34,546 nt of DNA from Draconibacterium orientale (GTDB lineage Bacteria; Bacteroidota; Bacteroidia; Bacteroidales; UBA1556): assembly GCA_020718275.1 (NCBI GenBank), contig DYSI01000020.1:1-34546 (forward strand). The letters are read 5' to 3'. Under the pieces are notes generated by a model. The model saw only the letters and a program-made list of their open reading frames with translations, did no database searches and was not told the origin of the DNA. This document shows positions 5,764 through 13,150 of this stretch, in pieces. Position numbers and translations under genes: made by a program. Numbering within the stretch: position 1 is the first letter of the stretch; every line of letters starts with the position of its first letter.

Positions 5764-5860
5764 TTTTTATAATATTGCCCCTACTTTTTGAGTAATGGTC
5801 TTGCCAAACTAGGCTTTTTACCTGTTTTTAGTTTACTATGATAGTTATGAGTTTTTTTTC

Positions 5861-5891
5861 TTGTAAAAAGCATGCTTCTTTCTTATCTTTG
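5861..5891 (+). promoter_or_regulatory. Bacteroidetes promoter for the TPR/caspase-like gene
   Basis: TTG (5861-5863), 20-nt spacer, TATCTTTG (5884-5891), 42 nt before the ATG at 5934. Confidence 0.7.
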
Positions 5892-5933
5892 CGACTAAAT
5901 ATAATAAGTCTAATAAATCACACTCTCAATATT

Positions 5934-8279
5934 ATGAAAACACTTTCATTCCTTTTATCGTTCATTCTTTTGGCTTCCTTTGGGCAGGCCCAAAATGCAA
6001 AAAAGTTTTTTAAAACTGGAGAGACTTTCAGTGAAAGTCAGCAGTATAATGATGCACTCGATAATTTTACGAAAGCCATAGAAATGGAGCCCGACTTTGT
6101 AAAAGCTTTTGTTGCTCGTGCTGATGTATATATTAAACTCAATAAAACATACGAGGCTTTTGCAGATTTAGAGCGTGCTTGTATCTTAGATGCAAAAGAA
6201 CCAGCCTATTCACTTCAAGCAGCTCGCCTAGCACTAGCGTTAGAAAAATACGAAAGTGCTATCAAATTTGCTGATTTGACTATCTTAAATGATAAAAAGT
6301 TACTGGATTCTTACCATATCAAAGTGATGGCTTTATTTAACCTAAATAAAATTGATGAGGCTCTATTTACTGCTAATGCTGCAATCGAAATTAAAAAGAT
6401 CTTTCAAACTCATTATGATAAAGCAGAAATGCTTTTTGCTCGCAAGGAATATAAAGAAGCTCAAAATTATTATCAATTGGCTATTTCTGACGAAGAGAAT
6501 AATATCAAAGGGTATATCGGCTTAGCAAATGCCTACTTTCAGCAAAATCTTTTCGATCCTACAATCTCATCGGTCAATTCTGCTTTGCGTATCGATCAAC
6601 GTAGCAAGGATGCCTATTTAATACGAGCAGCAGCTTATAACAAAAAGTTTGATTATGTTAGTGCAATTAATGATTTGTCGCAGGTAATTGTATTGTATCC
6701 TAATGAGCCATTCTTAAAAGATGTATTTTTTAAAAGAGGTCAAATGTACTATGACTTTAAACAACATATCAATGCGATCAATGACTATACAAGTGTAATT
6801 GATATGGATCCTCAGTATTATCCAGCTTATTTCAATAGAGCAGCAAGTTATGAGGAAATCCACAGCTTAGATAAAGCAATTCTTGATTACGAAAAGTTAG
6901 ATGCGCTTAATCTTAAAGATGAAGTAGCCCTTAAATTACTGGATGCCGCTCATATTCGTTTGTTTGAATTAAAACGAGAAGACAATCGTCCTGTTTTGGT
7001 AATCAATAATCCAATGGTTACTTCGGATAAAAAAATTCAAATAATCCTTGGAAAAGAAACTCAACAAATATCTGGTCAAGTTAATGACGAAAGCCCAATA
7101 AAGTCTTTTACCATCAACGGTACTGTAATACAATTTGATTCTACCTCTAAGAAAAATGAATTTAATACTAAACTAGTAGTTAAAGATAAAACTGAAATTG
7201 TTTTTGCGGTCAGAGATGTTTATGACAATGTGACTAATGAAATCATGCAAATACAATTTACCGAAGTAGATGCACCTGAACTTAGTCTTGTTCAGCCAAT
7301 GGCAAGTGATGATGGACAAATCTATTTGCAGTCTAGCGAAGCAAAACTTTACATCGAGGGCACCATAATCGATGCTAGCTTAATTGCTTCAATTCTGATT
7401 GATAGTGCACAAGCTAGTTTCATCCCGTCGACTCTAAATCCTTCTTTTGGCGCAAGTGTTAATATCACGAATAAAAATCAAATCTCAATTGAAGTAAAAG
7501 ATATTTTTGGAAATACAACTACGAAAAAATATATCCTAAATAGAGAAGGCGCTGAAATAGCTTCTGAGAATCCTATGGGGAAAACTTGGGTGATCTTTAT
7601 TGAAAACGCTCAATATTCTACTTTTGCTTCCCTAAATGGGCCCACTAAAGATGTTTCAATGATGAAATCGGCTCTAGCAAATTATAATATTAATTACATT
7701 ATTCACAAGCGGAACCTTACTAAATCCCAAATGGAAAAGTTCTTTTCTATAGAATTGCGGGATCTAGTGATTAAAAACAATGTAAACTCCATTATCGTTT
7801 GGTATGCAGGTCACGGAAAATTCTTGAATAATACTGGTTATTGGGTTCCTGTTGATGGTAGAACAGATGATGAATTTACCTATTTTAATATAAGCACTCT
7901 TAAGTCCTCTATGCAGGCTTACAGCAAAATTGTAACCCATACCTTAGTTATTACAGATGCTTGTGAATCAGGCCCATCGTTCTATCAAGCCATGCGTTCA
8001 GATATCACTGAAAGGGATTGCTCCGACTGGAAAGCCACTAAATTCAAATCAAGTCAGGTCTTTTCTTCAGCTGGATATGAACTGGCTTCTGATAATTCCC
8101 AATTTACTAAGACATTTGCTAATTCCTTGATTCACAATCCTAATAGTTGTATTCCGATAGAAAGTATTGTACTTTCAGTTAAAAAGGCCGTTACTAAAAA
8201 TAATCAGCAAGCTCCGCAATTTGGTAAAATTGACGGAATGGAGGATGAAAATGGTACTTTCTTTTTTATTCGCAAATAA
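5934..8279 (+). CDS. Secreted TPR-repeat protein with Ig-like region and C-terminal caspase-like (C14) domain
   Basis: Signal peptide MKTLSFLLSFILLASFGQAQ; several TPR-like repeats; Ig-like middle region; caspase dyad motifs YAGHGK (His codon 7812-7814) and DACESG (Cys codon 7962-7964). Confidence 0.88.
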   Translation: MKTLSFLLSFILLASFGQAQNAKKFFKTGETFSESQQYNDALDNFTKAIEMEPDFVKAFVARADVYIKLNKTYEAFADLERACILDAKEPAYSLQAARLALALEKYESAIKFADLTILNDKKLLDSYHIKVMALFNLNKIDEALFTANAAIEIKKIFQTHYDKAEMLFARKEYKEAQNYYQLAISDEENNIKGYIGLANAYFQQNLFDPTISSVNSALRIDQRSKDAYLIRAAAYNKKFDYVSAINDLSQVIVLYPNEPFLKDVFFKRGQMYYDFKQHINAINDYTSVIDMDPQYYPAYFNRAASYEEIHSLDKAILDYEKLDALNLKDEVALKLLDAAHIRLFELKREDNRPVLVINNPMVTSDKKIQIILGKETQQISGQVNDESPIKSFTINGTVIQFDSTSKKNEFNTKLVVKDKTEIVFAVRDVYDNVTNEIMQIQFTEVDAPELSLVQPMASDDGQIYLQSSEAKLYIEGTIIDASLIASILIDSAQASFIPSTLNPSFGASVNITNKNQISIEVKDIFGNTTTKKYILNREGAEIASENPMGKTWVIFIENAQYSTFASLNGPTKDVSMMKSALANYNINYIIHKRNLTKSQMEKFFSIELRDLVIKNNVNSIIVWYAGHGKFLNNTGYWVPVDGRTDDEFTYFNISTLKSSMQAYSKIVTHTLVITDACESGPSFYQAMRSDITERDCSDWKATKFKSSQVFSSAGYELASDNSQFTKTFANSLIHNPNSCIPIESIVLSVKKAVTKNNQQAPQFGKIDGMEDENGTFFFIRK

Positions 8280-8349: not shown

Positions 8350-11300
8350 ATGGTAAGAAGTTCATTTCAATCGGTCGTATTTCTTTCATTTATATTCTTG
8401 ATGAGCCTAGCAAAAAGCGCATATCCTCAAGATTATTACTTCGATAATTACAGTGTAAAGGAAGGATTGGCGCATACCAAAATCAAAAGTATTATTCAAT
8501 CTCATGACGGTTACGTTTGGATTGGTACGGCTAGTGGATTATCACGCTTTGATGGAAATACTTTTAGAAATTACACCATTGAAGATGGAATTTCGGCATT
8601 TGGAGTTTCTGCATTGCATTTAGATAGTGCTGAAACTCTCTGGATTGGTCACCTATCCTCAGGTTTTTCATATTTGCGAAAAGATAAGTTTTATACCATT
8701 AAGCTTGATAGCGCTCTCGGCGATATTTCTGATATTGAGCAAGATGAAAAAGGCAGACTTTGGATTGCAACTTCTAAAAGTGGCGTTTATCGAATTGATG
8801 ACCCATTTGCTGAAAAAATTCAAATTTCTGCTCATATAACTGCTAAAAGCGGACTCCCTAATGAGGTTTTTTCTATGGCCAAAACTCAATCGTTGGGTTT
8901 ATTATTCATCACAGGCTACGGCGTTAAATATTATGATTCAAAGCTTAATAAGTTTGAATTTGTAAATGATCAATTTATTGACTGGCCTCAATACTTTCAG
9001 ATCACTAGTGTTTTGGAAGATAAAAATAATGGTTTTTGGGTAGGTACTTTTAATGGCGGTTTGTATCATTATCCATCAGTTAAAGCTAAAGCTCGAATTT
9101 TTGACAAGCGTGATGGACTCGTAAATAATTGGATTAGTGATATTTATCAATCATATGATGGTAGCGTTTGGGTCGCAACTTATGGCGGAGGAATATCTGT
9201 TTTTAATGGCGATAAAATCGAAAATTATGACACGGAAAATGGATTAATTGATAATACGATAACTTGTGTTGCTGCTGATTTTGAAGGAAATATGCTAATC
9301 GGAACCTATTCCAAAGGATTAGCTGTTTTTAAAGGGCGTGCATTCATTCATGCAAAAAAGTTTTTGTCCGATAGAGTAGTTCAAGTATACGGAATATCGG
9401 AAGGATTTAAAAACGATTTTTGGTATGCTACCAACGAAGGCTTGTTTAACGCTACTAAAGATCAGTTCGGTCACTTCAAAACTAAGCATTTTACTAGCGA
9501 TGGTCTTAACTTTCAGTCAACTGATGTTCGCTTTGTAAAGCAAGATAAAAAGGGAAATCAATGGGTTGGAACATGGGGAGGAGGAGTGTCCTTTTTTGAT
9601 GCAGCTCGAAATAAATTCACTTATGCTTATTTAGTAAATACAGTTCTTTATCAAGCCTCTAATAGTGCTAACGTCACCGCCATGGAGTTAGATAAAGATG
9701 GTAATTTATGGGTAGGATCTTATGGCGGACTTATCTACTTTGAGCCGTCTAGTGATAAATTAAACGTTCTTACCCAAGGAAGTAATCTGCTGAATAATGA
9801 TATTTCTACGCTTTATTGTGACGAAAATAATATGATGTGGGTTGGACATCGCGATAAAGGAGTGACCCAGATACGAATAAGTGACGGCACCATCAAACCC
9901 TATAATTTTGGCATGGAGGTTACTCCCACTTGTATTCTTGGTAATGAAAGCCAGTTGTGGATTGGAACCGAAGGGATGGGCGTTTTTTTGGTTAACGATC
10001 ATAAAATACTTGAGCATTACAGTTTTGAAAATGGCCTGCTTTCTAATCTGATAACCGCTCTCAGCTTTGATTTAGCTGGAAATTTATTTGTGGCTACGAA
10101 TCGTGGTCTTAATAAAATTGAGATAAAGACTAAAAGAGTTTTATCTTTTGCCGAAAAAGAAGGTTTTGTAGGAATTGAAATCAAACCAAACGCACTTTAT
10201 CGTGATAAAACAGGAGTTTTATGGGCCGGAACTGCAACAGGACTAACGCAAATTGTTCCTAAATTATTAAAAATAAACGAATTACCTCCAATTACAAGAA
10301 TTAATCGACTCAGAGTTAACCTTGAAGATCGTCCTATTACTCAGGATATGGTGTTCAAATATAATGAGAATTCAATCTTGATTGATTATAAGTCAATTTG
10401 TATAACAAATGCAGATAAAGTTGCCTATAAGGTTCGGTTAATAGGAGCGGAAGAAGAATGGCAACCCATTACTTCACAGACCTATGTGAATTATCCTAGT
10501 TTGCCTCCCGGACATTATACTTTTGAAGTGATGGCAATGAATAATGCAAACGTTTGGAATATAGAATCTGAGAAATTCTCCTTTACAATTCGTCCTCCTT
10601 TTTGGCAAACCATTTGGTTTTATAGTTTGGTTCTTTTTGTTTTGATTATTGGTCTGGTGATGTTTATTAAAATCCGTGAACGTCAATTGAAAAATGAAAA
10701 AGCGGAACTCGAACAAAAAGTGAAAGAAAGAACGGTTGAAATACAACAGAAAAATGATTTGTTAGCAAAAAAGAATAAGGATATCACCGATAGTATTAAC
10801 TACGCCCAACGAATCCAAAAAGCAATAATGCCCCCTCCGCAAAAAATGAATGAATTGCTTAAATCTTCGTTTATATTTTATCGTCCAAAGGATATTGTTA
10901 GTGGTGATTTTCATTGGAATACCTTTTATAAAAACAAAATGATAGTGGCTGCTGCAGACTGTACTGGCCACGGAGTCCCGGGTGCTTTTATGAGCATGAT
11001 AAGTATCAGTTCGCTTAATAAAGTTGTAAAGGAAAAACAAATAACCGATCCTGCGCGAATTTTAGATAATATGCGATACGACATCGTTGCCGACCTTAAG
11101 CAAAGTGGTGATGTTCAGGCCAAAGATGGACTTGATATCGCTTTAGTGGCTATTGATATCGAAAATAAAATTGTACAATTCGCCGGCGCATACAATCCAC
11201 TTTATATTGTTAAAGCTAAGCCAGTTGATGAGAGTCAGTTGGAATATGATTTTGCTTTTGCCTTATTTGGTGATCGGCTAATTGAAGTAAAAGCAGACCG

Positions 11301-11583
11301 AATGCCCATAGGAATTTCTGAAAGAATGGACTTAGGTTTCACCACTAAAACGATTCAAATGGAAAAGGGAGATCAGGTTTTTGTTTCTACAGATGGTTAC
11401 ATTGATCAATTTGGAGGGGCTAATGGTAAAAAGTTTATGTCAAAAAGATTCAAAGAATTATTAATGCAATTGCCTTACTCAGACCCTGAAAACGCGATAG
11501 TTAGTTTGGAAAAACAGTTCAACGAATGGCGAGGAGAACATGAACAAATCGACGATGTTTTAGTTATTGGAATTTGTTTTTAA
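8350..11583 (+). CDS. Two-component-regulator-type beta-propeller / Y_Y_Y sensor with TM helix, coiled coil and SpoIIE/PP2C phosphatase domain (SiaA/RsbU-like)
   Basis: Repeated propeller blades (GYVWIGTASGLSRFDG, GSVWVATYGGGISVFNG); Y_Y_Y region; TM WFYSLVLFVLIIGLVMFI; coiled coil; PP2C motifs SGDFHW, AAADCTGHGVPGAFMS, STDGYIDQ, IDDVLVIG. Signal-peptide start chosen at 8350. Confidence 0.92.
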   Translation: MVRSSFQSVVFLSFIFLMSLAKSAYPQDYYFDNYSVKEGLAHTKIKSIIQSHDGYVWIGTASGLSRFDGNTFRNYTIEDGISAFGVSALHLDSAETLWIGHLSSGFSYLRKDKFYTIKLDSALGDISDIEQDEKGRLWIATSKSGVYRIDDPFAEKIQISAHITAKSGLPNEVFSMAKTQSLGLLFITGYGVKYYDSKLNKFEFVNDQFIDWPQYFQITSVLEDKNNGFWVGTFNGGLYHYPSVKAKARIFDKRDGLVNNWISDIYQSYDGSVWVATYGGGISVFNGDKIENYDTENGLIDNTITCVAADFEGNMLIGTYSKGLAVFKGRAFIHAKKFLSDRVVQVYGISEGFKNDFWYATNEGLFNATKDQFGHFKTKHFTSDGLNFQSTDVRFVKQDKKGNQWVGTWGGGVSFFDAARNKFTYAYLVNTVLYQASNSANVTAMELDKDGNLWVGSYGGLIYFEPSSDKLNVLTQGSNLLNNDISTLYCDENNMMWVGHRDKGVTQIRISDGTIKPYNFGMEVTPTCILGNESQLWIGTEGMGVFLVNDHKILEHYSFENGLLSNLITALSFDLAGNLFVATNRGLNKIEIKTKRVLSFAEKEGFVGIEIKPNALYRDKTGVLWAGTATGLTQIVPKLLKINELPPITRINRLRVNLEDRPITQDMVFKYNENSILIDYKSICITNADKVAYKVRLIGAEEEWQPITSQTYVNYPSLPPGHYTFEVMAMNNANVWNIESEKFSFTIRPPFWQTIWFYSLVLFVLIIGLVMFIKIRERQLKNEKAELEQKVKERTVEIQQKNDLLAKKNKDITDSINYAQRIQKAIMPPPQKMNELLKSSFIFYRPKDIVSGDFHWNTFYKNKMIVAAADCTGHGVPGAFMSMISISSLNKVVKEKQITDPARILDNMRYDIVADLKQSGDVQAKDGLDIALVAIDIENKIVQFAGAYNPLYIVKAKPVDESQLEYDFAFALFGDRLIEVKADRMPIGISERMDLGFTTKTIQMEKGDQVFVSTDGYIDQFGGANGKKFMSKRFKELLMQLPYSDPENAIVSLEKQFNEWRGEHEQIDDVLVIGICF

Positions 11584-11649: not shown

Positions 11650-12198
11650 ATGAATACTTACGAAAAGTTTCGCAATATGATGGATAACCATATTGTTTTA
11701 TCCTTTAAAGGCGAAATAAATTCCGACATTATTACGATGGTTTTGCAAATAATGGAAACCAAATTGGATGCTGTTTCAGAAAAAAGCAGCGTTAGGAAGA
11801 AAATATTCAATGTGCTGGTTGAATGTATGCAGAACCTTTATCACCATGCAGAGGCTGAGGTGGAAGGAGACATTCATACAAGACGGGCAATGCTCGAATT
11901 GTTTTACGATGAGGATTTCTACTATATTTTGACAGGTAATTACATCAAGAATGTTGAGATTTCGCCTTTAAAAGACCGGATAGATAGGGTTAATTCCCTC
12001 TCAAAGGATGAATTGCGCCAGTATTATCGCGAAATTTTGGATAATAATATTATTTCCAATAAGGGAGGTGCAGACCTTGGTATGATTGACATGGCTAGAA
12101 AATCGGGTCAGAAATTGGATTATAATTTTACAAAAGTTAATGATGACTTATCCTTTTTTGACTTGAAAGTTAAAGTGGATAAAAAGAGAGATAATTAA
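11650..12198 (+). CDS. SiaB-like protein kinase (DUF6272, HATPase-related)
   Basis: N-box-like KIFNVLVECMQNLYHHAE and GGADLGMIDMARKSG; sits between PP2C and DUF1987 genes as in Sia modules. Confidence 0.8.
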   Translation: MNTYEKFRNMMDNHIVLSFKGEINSDIITMVLQIMETKLDAVSEKSSVRKKIFNVLVECMQNLYHHAEAEVEGDIHTRRAMLELFYDEDFYYILTGNYIKNVEISPLKDRIDRVNSLSKDELRQYYREILDNNIISNKGGADLGMIDMARKSGQKLDYNFTKVNDDLSFFDLKVKVDKKRDN

Positions 12199-12625: not shown

Positions 12626-13150
12626 ATGGCAAATCAGAGTATATACCAAAGAGAACTAGAAAATCTCGAGCAAAGTAAGCAGTTTCTTCAACGAAATGAA
12701 TATTCCAAAATTGAACTACAATTGGAATTCAAAAAAATCGTTGAAAATTATGAAGAGCTAATTGATCAGGTGAAGATTATCACCAAAATTAGCGATCGTC
12801 TGCAGAATAAATTAAATAAAACTAACGAAGCGCTCGAAAGCTCTAATATCAAATTGGCTGATTTGAATCACCAACTTAATCAAACTATTGATCAACTTAC
12901 AGAAGCTAAAATTGGTCGAAAGGCTGGAACAATCATTCTTATTTTTGCGATTGCATTATTTATTATCTCAGAAGCTTTTATCGAACCAATCATTGAAAGA
13001 ACCTTTTCCAATAATTTTTGGATAGGATTAGGGCTCAAACTAGGAGTGGCTATCCTTATCAAACCAGGTGAAGATTTTGTGAATAAATATATGCTACGTC
13101 AAGCTCGAAAAAAACAGCTTGCAGAAGCCCGAGAACGTCTAGCAGATTAA
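12626..13150 (+). CDS. Coiled-coil membrane protein with SiaD-type stalk-like segment, no GGDEF domain
   Basis: Long coiled coil (NYEELIDQVKIITKISDRLQNKLNKTNEAL), then hydrophobic segments TIILIFAIALFIISEAFI and FWIGLGLKLGVAILI; 7-nt gap after the SiaC-like gene. Confidence 0.7.
   Translation: MANQSIYQRELENLEQSKQFLQRNEYSKIELQLEFKKIVENYEELIDQVKIITKISDRLQNKLNKTNEALESSNIKLADLNHQLNQTIDQLTEAKIGRKAGTIILIFAIALFIISEAFIEPIIERTFSNNFWIGLGLKLGVAILIKPGEDFVNKYMLRQARKKQLAEARERLAD

Follow-up and report, generated by a model that had tools for sequence, protein, structure and literature searches.

We conclude that the gene at positions 12626..13150 (forward strand) of the window, the whole 34,546-nucleotide stretch of Draconibacterium orientale DNA analysed here, probably encodes the receiver and effector of a SiaABC partner switch with a membrane output, as judged from sequence comparisons. 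Its product, P0001, is described as a putative SiaC-receiver stalk joined to an inner-membrane protein part with two hydrophobic segments, and this description is based on motif, conservation, profile matches and covariation.

The reading frame starts with an ATG 7 bp past the stop codon of the SiaC gene and encodes 174 aa. The earlier note had described a coiled coil, then two hydrophobic segments and a short basic tail, and both the coordinates of the ORF and this layout were confirmed. Residues 30-97 show a hydrophobic periodicity of 3.5, that of a heptad coiled coil. They are followed by hydrophobic segment 1 at about residues 100-119 (19-residue Kyte-Doolittle mean 2.5), by segment 2 at about 131-145 (15-residue Kyte-Doolittle mean 2.1), which is weaker because the invariant K138 lies inside it, and by the basic tail MLRQARKKQ. 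The AlphaFold2 single-sequence model of P0001 was all helix with one break at 127-130, and with a mean pLDDT of 68 and a pTM of 0.30 it is usable for secondary structure alone. Given the flanking positive charges, both ends of the protein would be cytoplasmic. A Pfam scan of P0001 returned no family above threshold and no GGDEF domain, and a PDB sequence search returned only chance coiled-coil matches.

At the level of sequence families, the locus is a SiaABC partner switch by its SiaA, SiaB and SiaC, which are encoded upstream of P0001 on the forward strand. The SiaA-like sensor phosphatase (8350..11583; Pfam Reg_prop 6e-37, Y_Y_Y 5e-13 and SpoIIE 1e-15) is laid out as a signal peptide, two-component-regulator propeller repeats, Y_Y_Y, a TM segment, a coiled coil and a SpoIIE-type PP2C domain; its ORF opens at 8167, and the ATG at 8350 is the likelier start. 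The SpoIIE domain scored 58.5 bits against a Pfam cut-off of 25, which places the protein among the PP2C/SpoIIE phosphatases, and the C-terminal part matched NCBIfam SiaA at 1e-56, under the equivalog cut-off. Its input domain differs from that of Pseudomonas SiaA. The SiaB-family protein kinase (11650..12198; NF038262 SiaB_fam_kinase, 153 bits against a cut-off of 85; PF19788, 137 bits) is encoded 39 bp upstream of the adjoining SiaC gene. The SiaC phosphoprotein, P0002 (12238..12618; PF09345 SiaC, 141 bits against a cut-off of 24.5), was matched by phmmer without gaps to the SiaC of PDB 6KKO/7E6G (E 1e-17) and keeps Y65-F66-N67-T68-S69-S70 in a numbering that coincides with that of PMC8457831; the phospho-acceptor position, T68 in N-T-S, is present in its sequence. 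Directly upstream of SiaA, at 5838-8279, lies a gene for a TPR protein whose C-terminal region (WYAGHGKF...DACESG) looks caspase-like, a call made by eye.

The best NCBIfam match of P0001 was SiaD, at E 9e-4 and over stalk positions 47-95 only; its 18.7 bits, from the stalk alone, stand against a SiaD equivalog cut-off of 290 bits. Other, unrelated coiled-coil models matched the wider stalk family at similar E-values in NCBIfam and Pfam scans; the SiaD library match is therefore weak evidence, and matches of this kind were discarded as proof of SiaD likeness. A stalk HMM was built from eight 33-mers of proteobacterial SiaC-partner stalks only, namely both motifs of P. aeruginosa SiaD, an Azospirillum histidine kinase and diguanylate cyclase, and Methylobacterium, Tistrella and Paraburkholderia cyclases adjoining SiaC on plasmids. 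Run over the 1339 proteins of the window and of the fetched loci, it placed 29 stalk-membrane proteins at the top, with 12.1 bits for P0001, 4.9 for the best unrelated protein and 6.5 for the best reversed decoy. Since this protein set is enriched for the stalk family, the search was repeated on whole genomes. In the six-frame search of 41 genomes, the P0001 ortholog was the best match in all nine genus genomes carrying the gene, and in its own genome P0001 was the sole match at E<=5. The ranking by a proteobacterial profile and the six-frame specificity bear out the proposal of the earlier note that the stalk resembles SiaD-type stalks beyond a generic coiled coil, and the contrary outcome named there, a stalk no better than generic coiled coils, was examined and rejected on the same results.

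The P0001 gene was found in nine of the 11 genus genomes, its own included, always directly after SiaC; the two genomes without it, both about 70% complete, carry no SiaC and a single SiaC, respectively. When the profile search was widened to 393 genomes of the class and 299 of the phylum, full-length proteins with the stalk and two segments turned up immediately after SiaC in more families of the order and the class and in another class (L063, L124-L141, L162, L163 and L191). The SiaC and stalk-membrane ORFs usually overlap or lie within about 35 bp of each other, with the exception of one genus that has an extra stalk copy away from SiaC (L148-L150, L161). Proteins with the stalk and hydrophobic segments after SiaC come in two classes, and in the second membrane type (class II) a single TM lies at the C-terminus and the gene comes after doubled SiaB-SiaC sets (L153-L156, L160, L167-L169). 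In most genus genomes the TPR-caspase-like, SiaA, SiaB, SiaC, stalk-membrane and TonB-receptor genes are collinear. In genome G008 (locus L227) the SiaA and TPR genes are missing and SiaB, SiaC and stalk are still together, and between families the neighbours change to aminotransferase-, glycosyltransferase-, ParA- or flagellar-like genes while SiaC and stalk stay paired. SiaC/DUF1987 occurs in 83 of 198 genomes of the order, several with 20 or at least 21 matches, and it is strongly multiplied in some families; a stalk gene lies beside SiaC in one of 80 sampled SiaC loci of the window's order (L063), the others having no stalk.

The contacts between SiaC and SiaD are listed in the paper on crystal structure 7E6G, in which S82, D83, R84 and Q86 of SiaD contact N67-T68-S69 of SiaC, and S82 and Q86 form hydrogen bonds with T68 (PMC8457831). 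A SiaC-docking motif is predicted at residues 40-69 of P0001 (ENYEELIDQVKIITKISDRLQNKLNKTNEA; 12743..12832, forward strand) from the match to the proteobacterial stalk profile and from these contact residues. Within it, ITKISDRLQ maps without gaps onto SiaD, with S56, D57, R58 and Q60 equivalent to S82, D83, R84 and Q86. In 22 distant homologs D57, R58, L59, Q60 and N67 are invariant (Q60, the equivalent of Q86, in 22/22), and the position of S56 is S or G in 22/22, with G at the S82 equivalent in several class I lineages; among the class II tail-anchored relatives, the Q86 equivalent is often E. SiaD has two docking motifs, spaced by 32 residues; by sequence inspection, residues 24-28 and 88-92 of P0001, at that spacing to either side, carry no second one. 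With one SiaC motif and not two, a stalk:SiaC stoichiometry of 2:2 rather than 2:4 is expected. The identification of P0001 as SiaD itself was tested and rejected, because it has no GGDEF domain, scores under the SiaD cut-off and lacks the second docking motif.

Contacts that differ from those in Pseudomonas mostly change in a compensating manner. The pair SiaC79/stalk74, D-R in Pseudomonas, becomes K or R with Q, D, E or T; SiaC103/stalk91 (with 88), R-D in Pseudomonas, becomes E or D with K; SiaC114/stalk77, D-K in Pseudomonas, is replaced by hydrophobic or small residues; and at SiaC29/stalk90, R29 pairs with N, D or E, and N29 with K or R. Summed over the seven published contacts in 26 lineages, where the residue pairing within two of the PMC8457831 contact lists is our interpretation of the word order there, charge complementarity was 68 against a shuffled mean of 46 (0/10,000 shuffles, phylogeny uncorrected), and when seven other pairs were drawn at random, 0.7% of such sets exceeded their own shuffles by as much as the published contacts did. 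Much of the signal reflects deep clade splits, that is, the split between Proteobacteria and Bacteroidota; within Bacteroidota, 29/90 alone varies usefully (15 lineages, P 0.0004, phylogeny uncorrected). Because the SiaC and stalk contact residues are kept, the contact charges covary and the gene pair is conserved, we infer that the interface evidence favours binding of SiaC by the P0001 stalk. In families with both membrane types, the 29/90 combinations differ between the pairs, N with K/R versus R with N/E (L131-L141 vs L156/L167-L169; L126/L127 vs L153/L154; L125 vs L155), and they look as if they keep two switches apart.

The membrane module of P0001, residues 98-147 (12917..13066, forward strand), was delimited by hydropathy and by conservation in 22 homologs. 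Segment 1 carries E116 and segment 2 carries K138, followed by K146-P147-x-E149; all 22 homologs keep K138, K146 and P147, while E116 is kept in 21/22 and E149 in 20/22, the remaining two having D there. Modules related to it form the ends of TPR proteins (L142-L147, L194, L196) and Y_Y_Y proteins (L152, L171) without a SiaC in the vicinity. The membrane part of P0001 could be a mere anchor; the conserved charges, together with the related modules on TPR and Y_Y_Y proteins, argue for a functional output and against an inert anchor. None of the 11 genus genomes (six at least 90% complete) yielded a GGDEF or class III cyclase domain, and several control genomes gave matches. In a genus without these domains a c-di-GMP output is not available, which supports the earlier suggestion that the output is a membrane protein rather than a nucleotide second messenger. 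At the C-termini of TPR and Y_Y_Y proteins, relatives of the module take the place where kinase, phosphatase and cyclase outputs are usual.

Considering these results, we propose a plausible model for the switch. The SiaA phosphatase, with its periplasmic propeller sensor, and the SiaB kinase would set the phosphorylation of SiaC at T68. Unphosphorylated SiaC would dock on the cytoplasmic stalk of P0001 at about residues 40-69, with T68 placed between two helices against S56 and Q60, and would keep the stalk in the form of an extended parallel dimer, with probably two stalks and two SiaC. Phosphorylation of T68 by SiaB would free SiaC from the stalk, and SiaA would reverse this step. The state of the stalk would be passed on, as in SiaD, to the hairpin of two membrane segments with its conserved charges, and the state of the switch would appear in the inner membrane as an altered oligomer or conformation, and not as c-di-GMP. 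The stalk mechanism is modelled on SiaC-SiaD and resembles that of RsbT-RsbU, and within it we infer SiaC-stalk binding, its dependence on T68, the stalk dimer and transmission to the membrane.

P0001 might also bind SiaC without being its effector, as a membrane scaffold or sink that keeps unphosphorylated SiaC near SiaA or as a buffer for it, with the true output elsewhere. SiaA is itself a membrane protein, the class II relatives have a single C-terminal TM as an anchor would have, and the genome holds another SiaABC set, the output of which could serve both. However, the two-segment module, with its invariant charges in or beside the hydrophobic segments, exceeds an anchor, and modules related to it also stand at the ends of TPR and Y_Y_Y proteins that are not accompanied by SiaC. 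The stalk gene also sits where SiaD, histidine kinase, cyclase and PP2C effectors sit elsewhere, and in G008 SiaA does not adjoin the SiaB-SiaC-stalk set. We therefore consider a scaffold or sink unlikely and retain P0001 as the probable effector.

Two further explanations appear far less probable. One is that the likeness to SiaD is a generic coiled-coil effect and that P0001 is unrelated to SiaC binding. In its favour, NCBIfam and Pfam scans of the stalk family also gave many unrelated coiled-coil models at similar E-values; but the independent profile is specific across whole genomes and places the stalk above other coiled coils and decoys, the contact residues are conserved and covary, and the gene pair is conserved, which makes this explanation highly improbable. 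We likewise give very little credence to P0001 recruiting SiaC as a co-effector, for example on the adjacent TonB-dependent receptor or the caspase-like TPR protein: the collinearity of these genes with the Sia genes and the stalk-membrane gene in most genus genomes would suit such a role, whereas between families the neighbours vary and SiaC and stalk remain paired.

Outside this class, the same N-terminal stalk (profile positions ~3-104) directly behind SiaC carries other domains, and the output domains of representative stalk proteins were checked by Pfam. SiaC-adjacent stalks were found with a class III nucleotide cyclase (L192, L193), a GGDEF domain (L197, and L202 by a 5-83 match and position), a HisKA histidine kinase (L198, L201) and a SpoIIE PP2C (L199); for two more stalk-cyclases (L195, L200), there was no SiaC within the 1.5 kb read. 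As the same stalk lies behind SiaC with many outputs, it is best interpreted as a module that receives SiaC. A broader and still doubtful generalisation is that the SiaC-docking stalk may be a universal receiver, by which a single phospho-switch is coupled to six or more exchangeable outputs (GGDEF, class III cyclase, histidine kinase, PP2C, tail anchor and two-segment membrane module), with the two-segment module as a new inner-membrane signalling output. If this is true, the membrane module would be a new kind of output, for instance a regulated oligomer or a small channel.

The closest comparison is SiaABCD of P. aeruginosa (PDB 7E6G; PMC8457831), which shares with this locus the operon order A-B-C-effector, N67-T68-S69 in SiaC and a helical effector stalk with an I-S-D-R-x-Q motif. 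In contrast, the effector here has two membrane segments and no GGDEF domain, it has one docking motif where SiaD has two, the residues at three published contacts are charge-reversed or replaced, and the window's genus lacks GGDEF and class III cyclase domains. By analogy, P0001 appears to work like SiaD on its input side. Plasmid SiaBC loci of Azospirillum, Methylobacterium and Tistrella (L173, L175, L178, L179) have SiaC followed by stalk proteins with KISDRLQ or LSDRMQ, as here, and their outputs, unlike that of P0001, are a histidine kinase and a diguanylate cyclase. The class II tail-anchored proteins resemble P0001 in being SiaC-adjacent, in their FLTKISDKLE or LTRIADRNQ motif and in their membrane C-terminus; they differ in the single C-terminal TM, in having no K-P-x-E module and in the frequent E at the Q86 equivalent. 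The RsbT-RsbU system of Bacillus works in a similar way: according to the excerpt of PMC12143880 considered here, the partner protein orders a coiled-coil linker and thereby dimerises the attached effector, and it is proposed there that effectors (PPM, GGDEF, HK) are exchanged as modules behind coiled-coil linkers. RsbT differs from SiaC as a kinase-type switch protein that binds the RsbU linker; the system has no SiaC, and no membrane effector is proposed in that excerpt.

In the literature searched, a diguanylate cyclase was the one SiaC effector found described, and a membrane effector of SiaC was found in none of the papers; PMC8457831 suggested that DUF1987 proteins modulate adjacent proteins, and nothing further. 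The docking stalk could serve as a sequence rule for predicting SiaC effectors. A SiaC switch could end in a membrane protein, in a genus that has no diguanylate cyclase domain though SiaC is abundant in its order. This suggests that the switch is a plug-in module with a swappable output, would extend to SiaC the RsbT/RsbU idea of exchangeable outputs on coiled-coil linkers, and marks an uncharacterised membrane module, placing it under a defined switch.

Several further loci deserve mention. On contig C31 of the same genome (L003:3712-10377), the gene after a second SiaA-SiaB-SiaC set encodes an ABC-2 type transporter of 1018 aa, in which no clear docking stalk was seen. The arrangement of SiaB-SiaC with an ABC transporter recurs in many genomes of the order, and the gene order suggests that the transporter may be another SiaC output. 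Two tail-anchored stalk proteins (L157:4338-4760 and L158:3254-3676) have no SiaC nearby, and their genes lie downstream of a large gene resembling an outer-membrane receptor with a carboxypeptidase-regulatory domain. In one genome from another class of the phylum (L228:850-11039), a receiver-PP2C-SiaB fusion (Pfam), SiaC and a protein with the stalk and two segments stand directly before flgB-, flgC-, fliE-, fliF-, fliG-, fliH- and fliI-like genes, which were named by eye.
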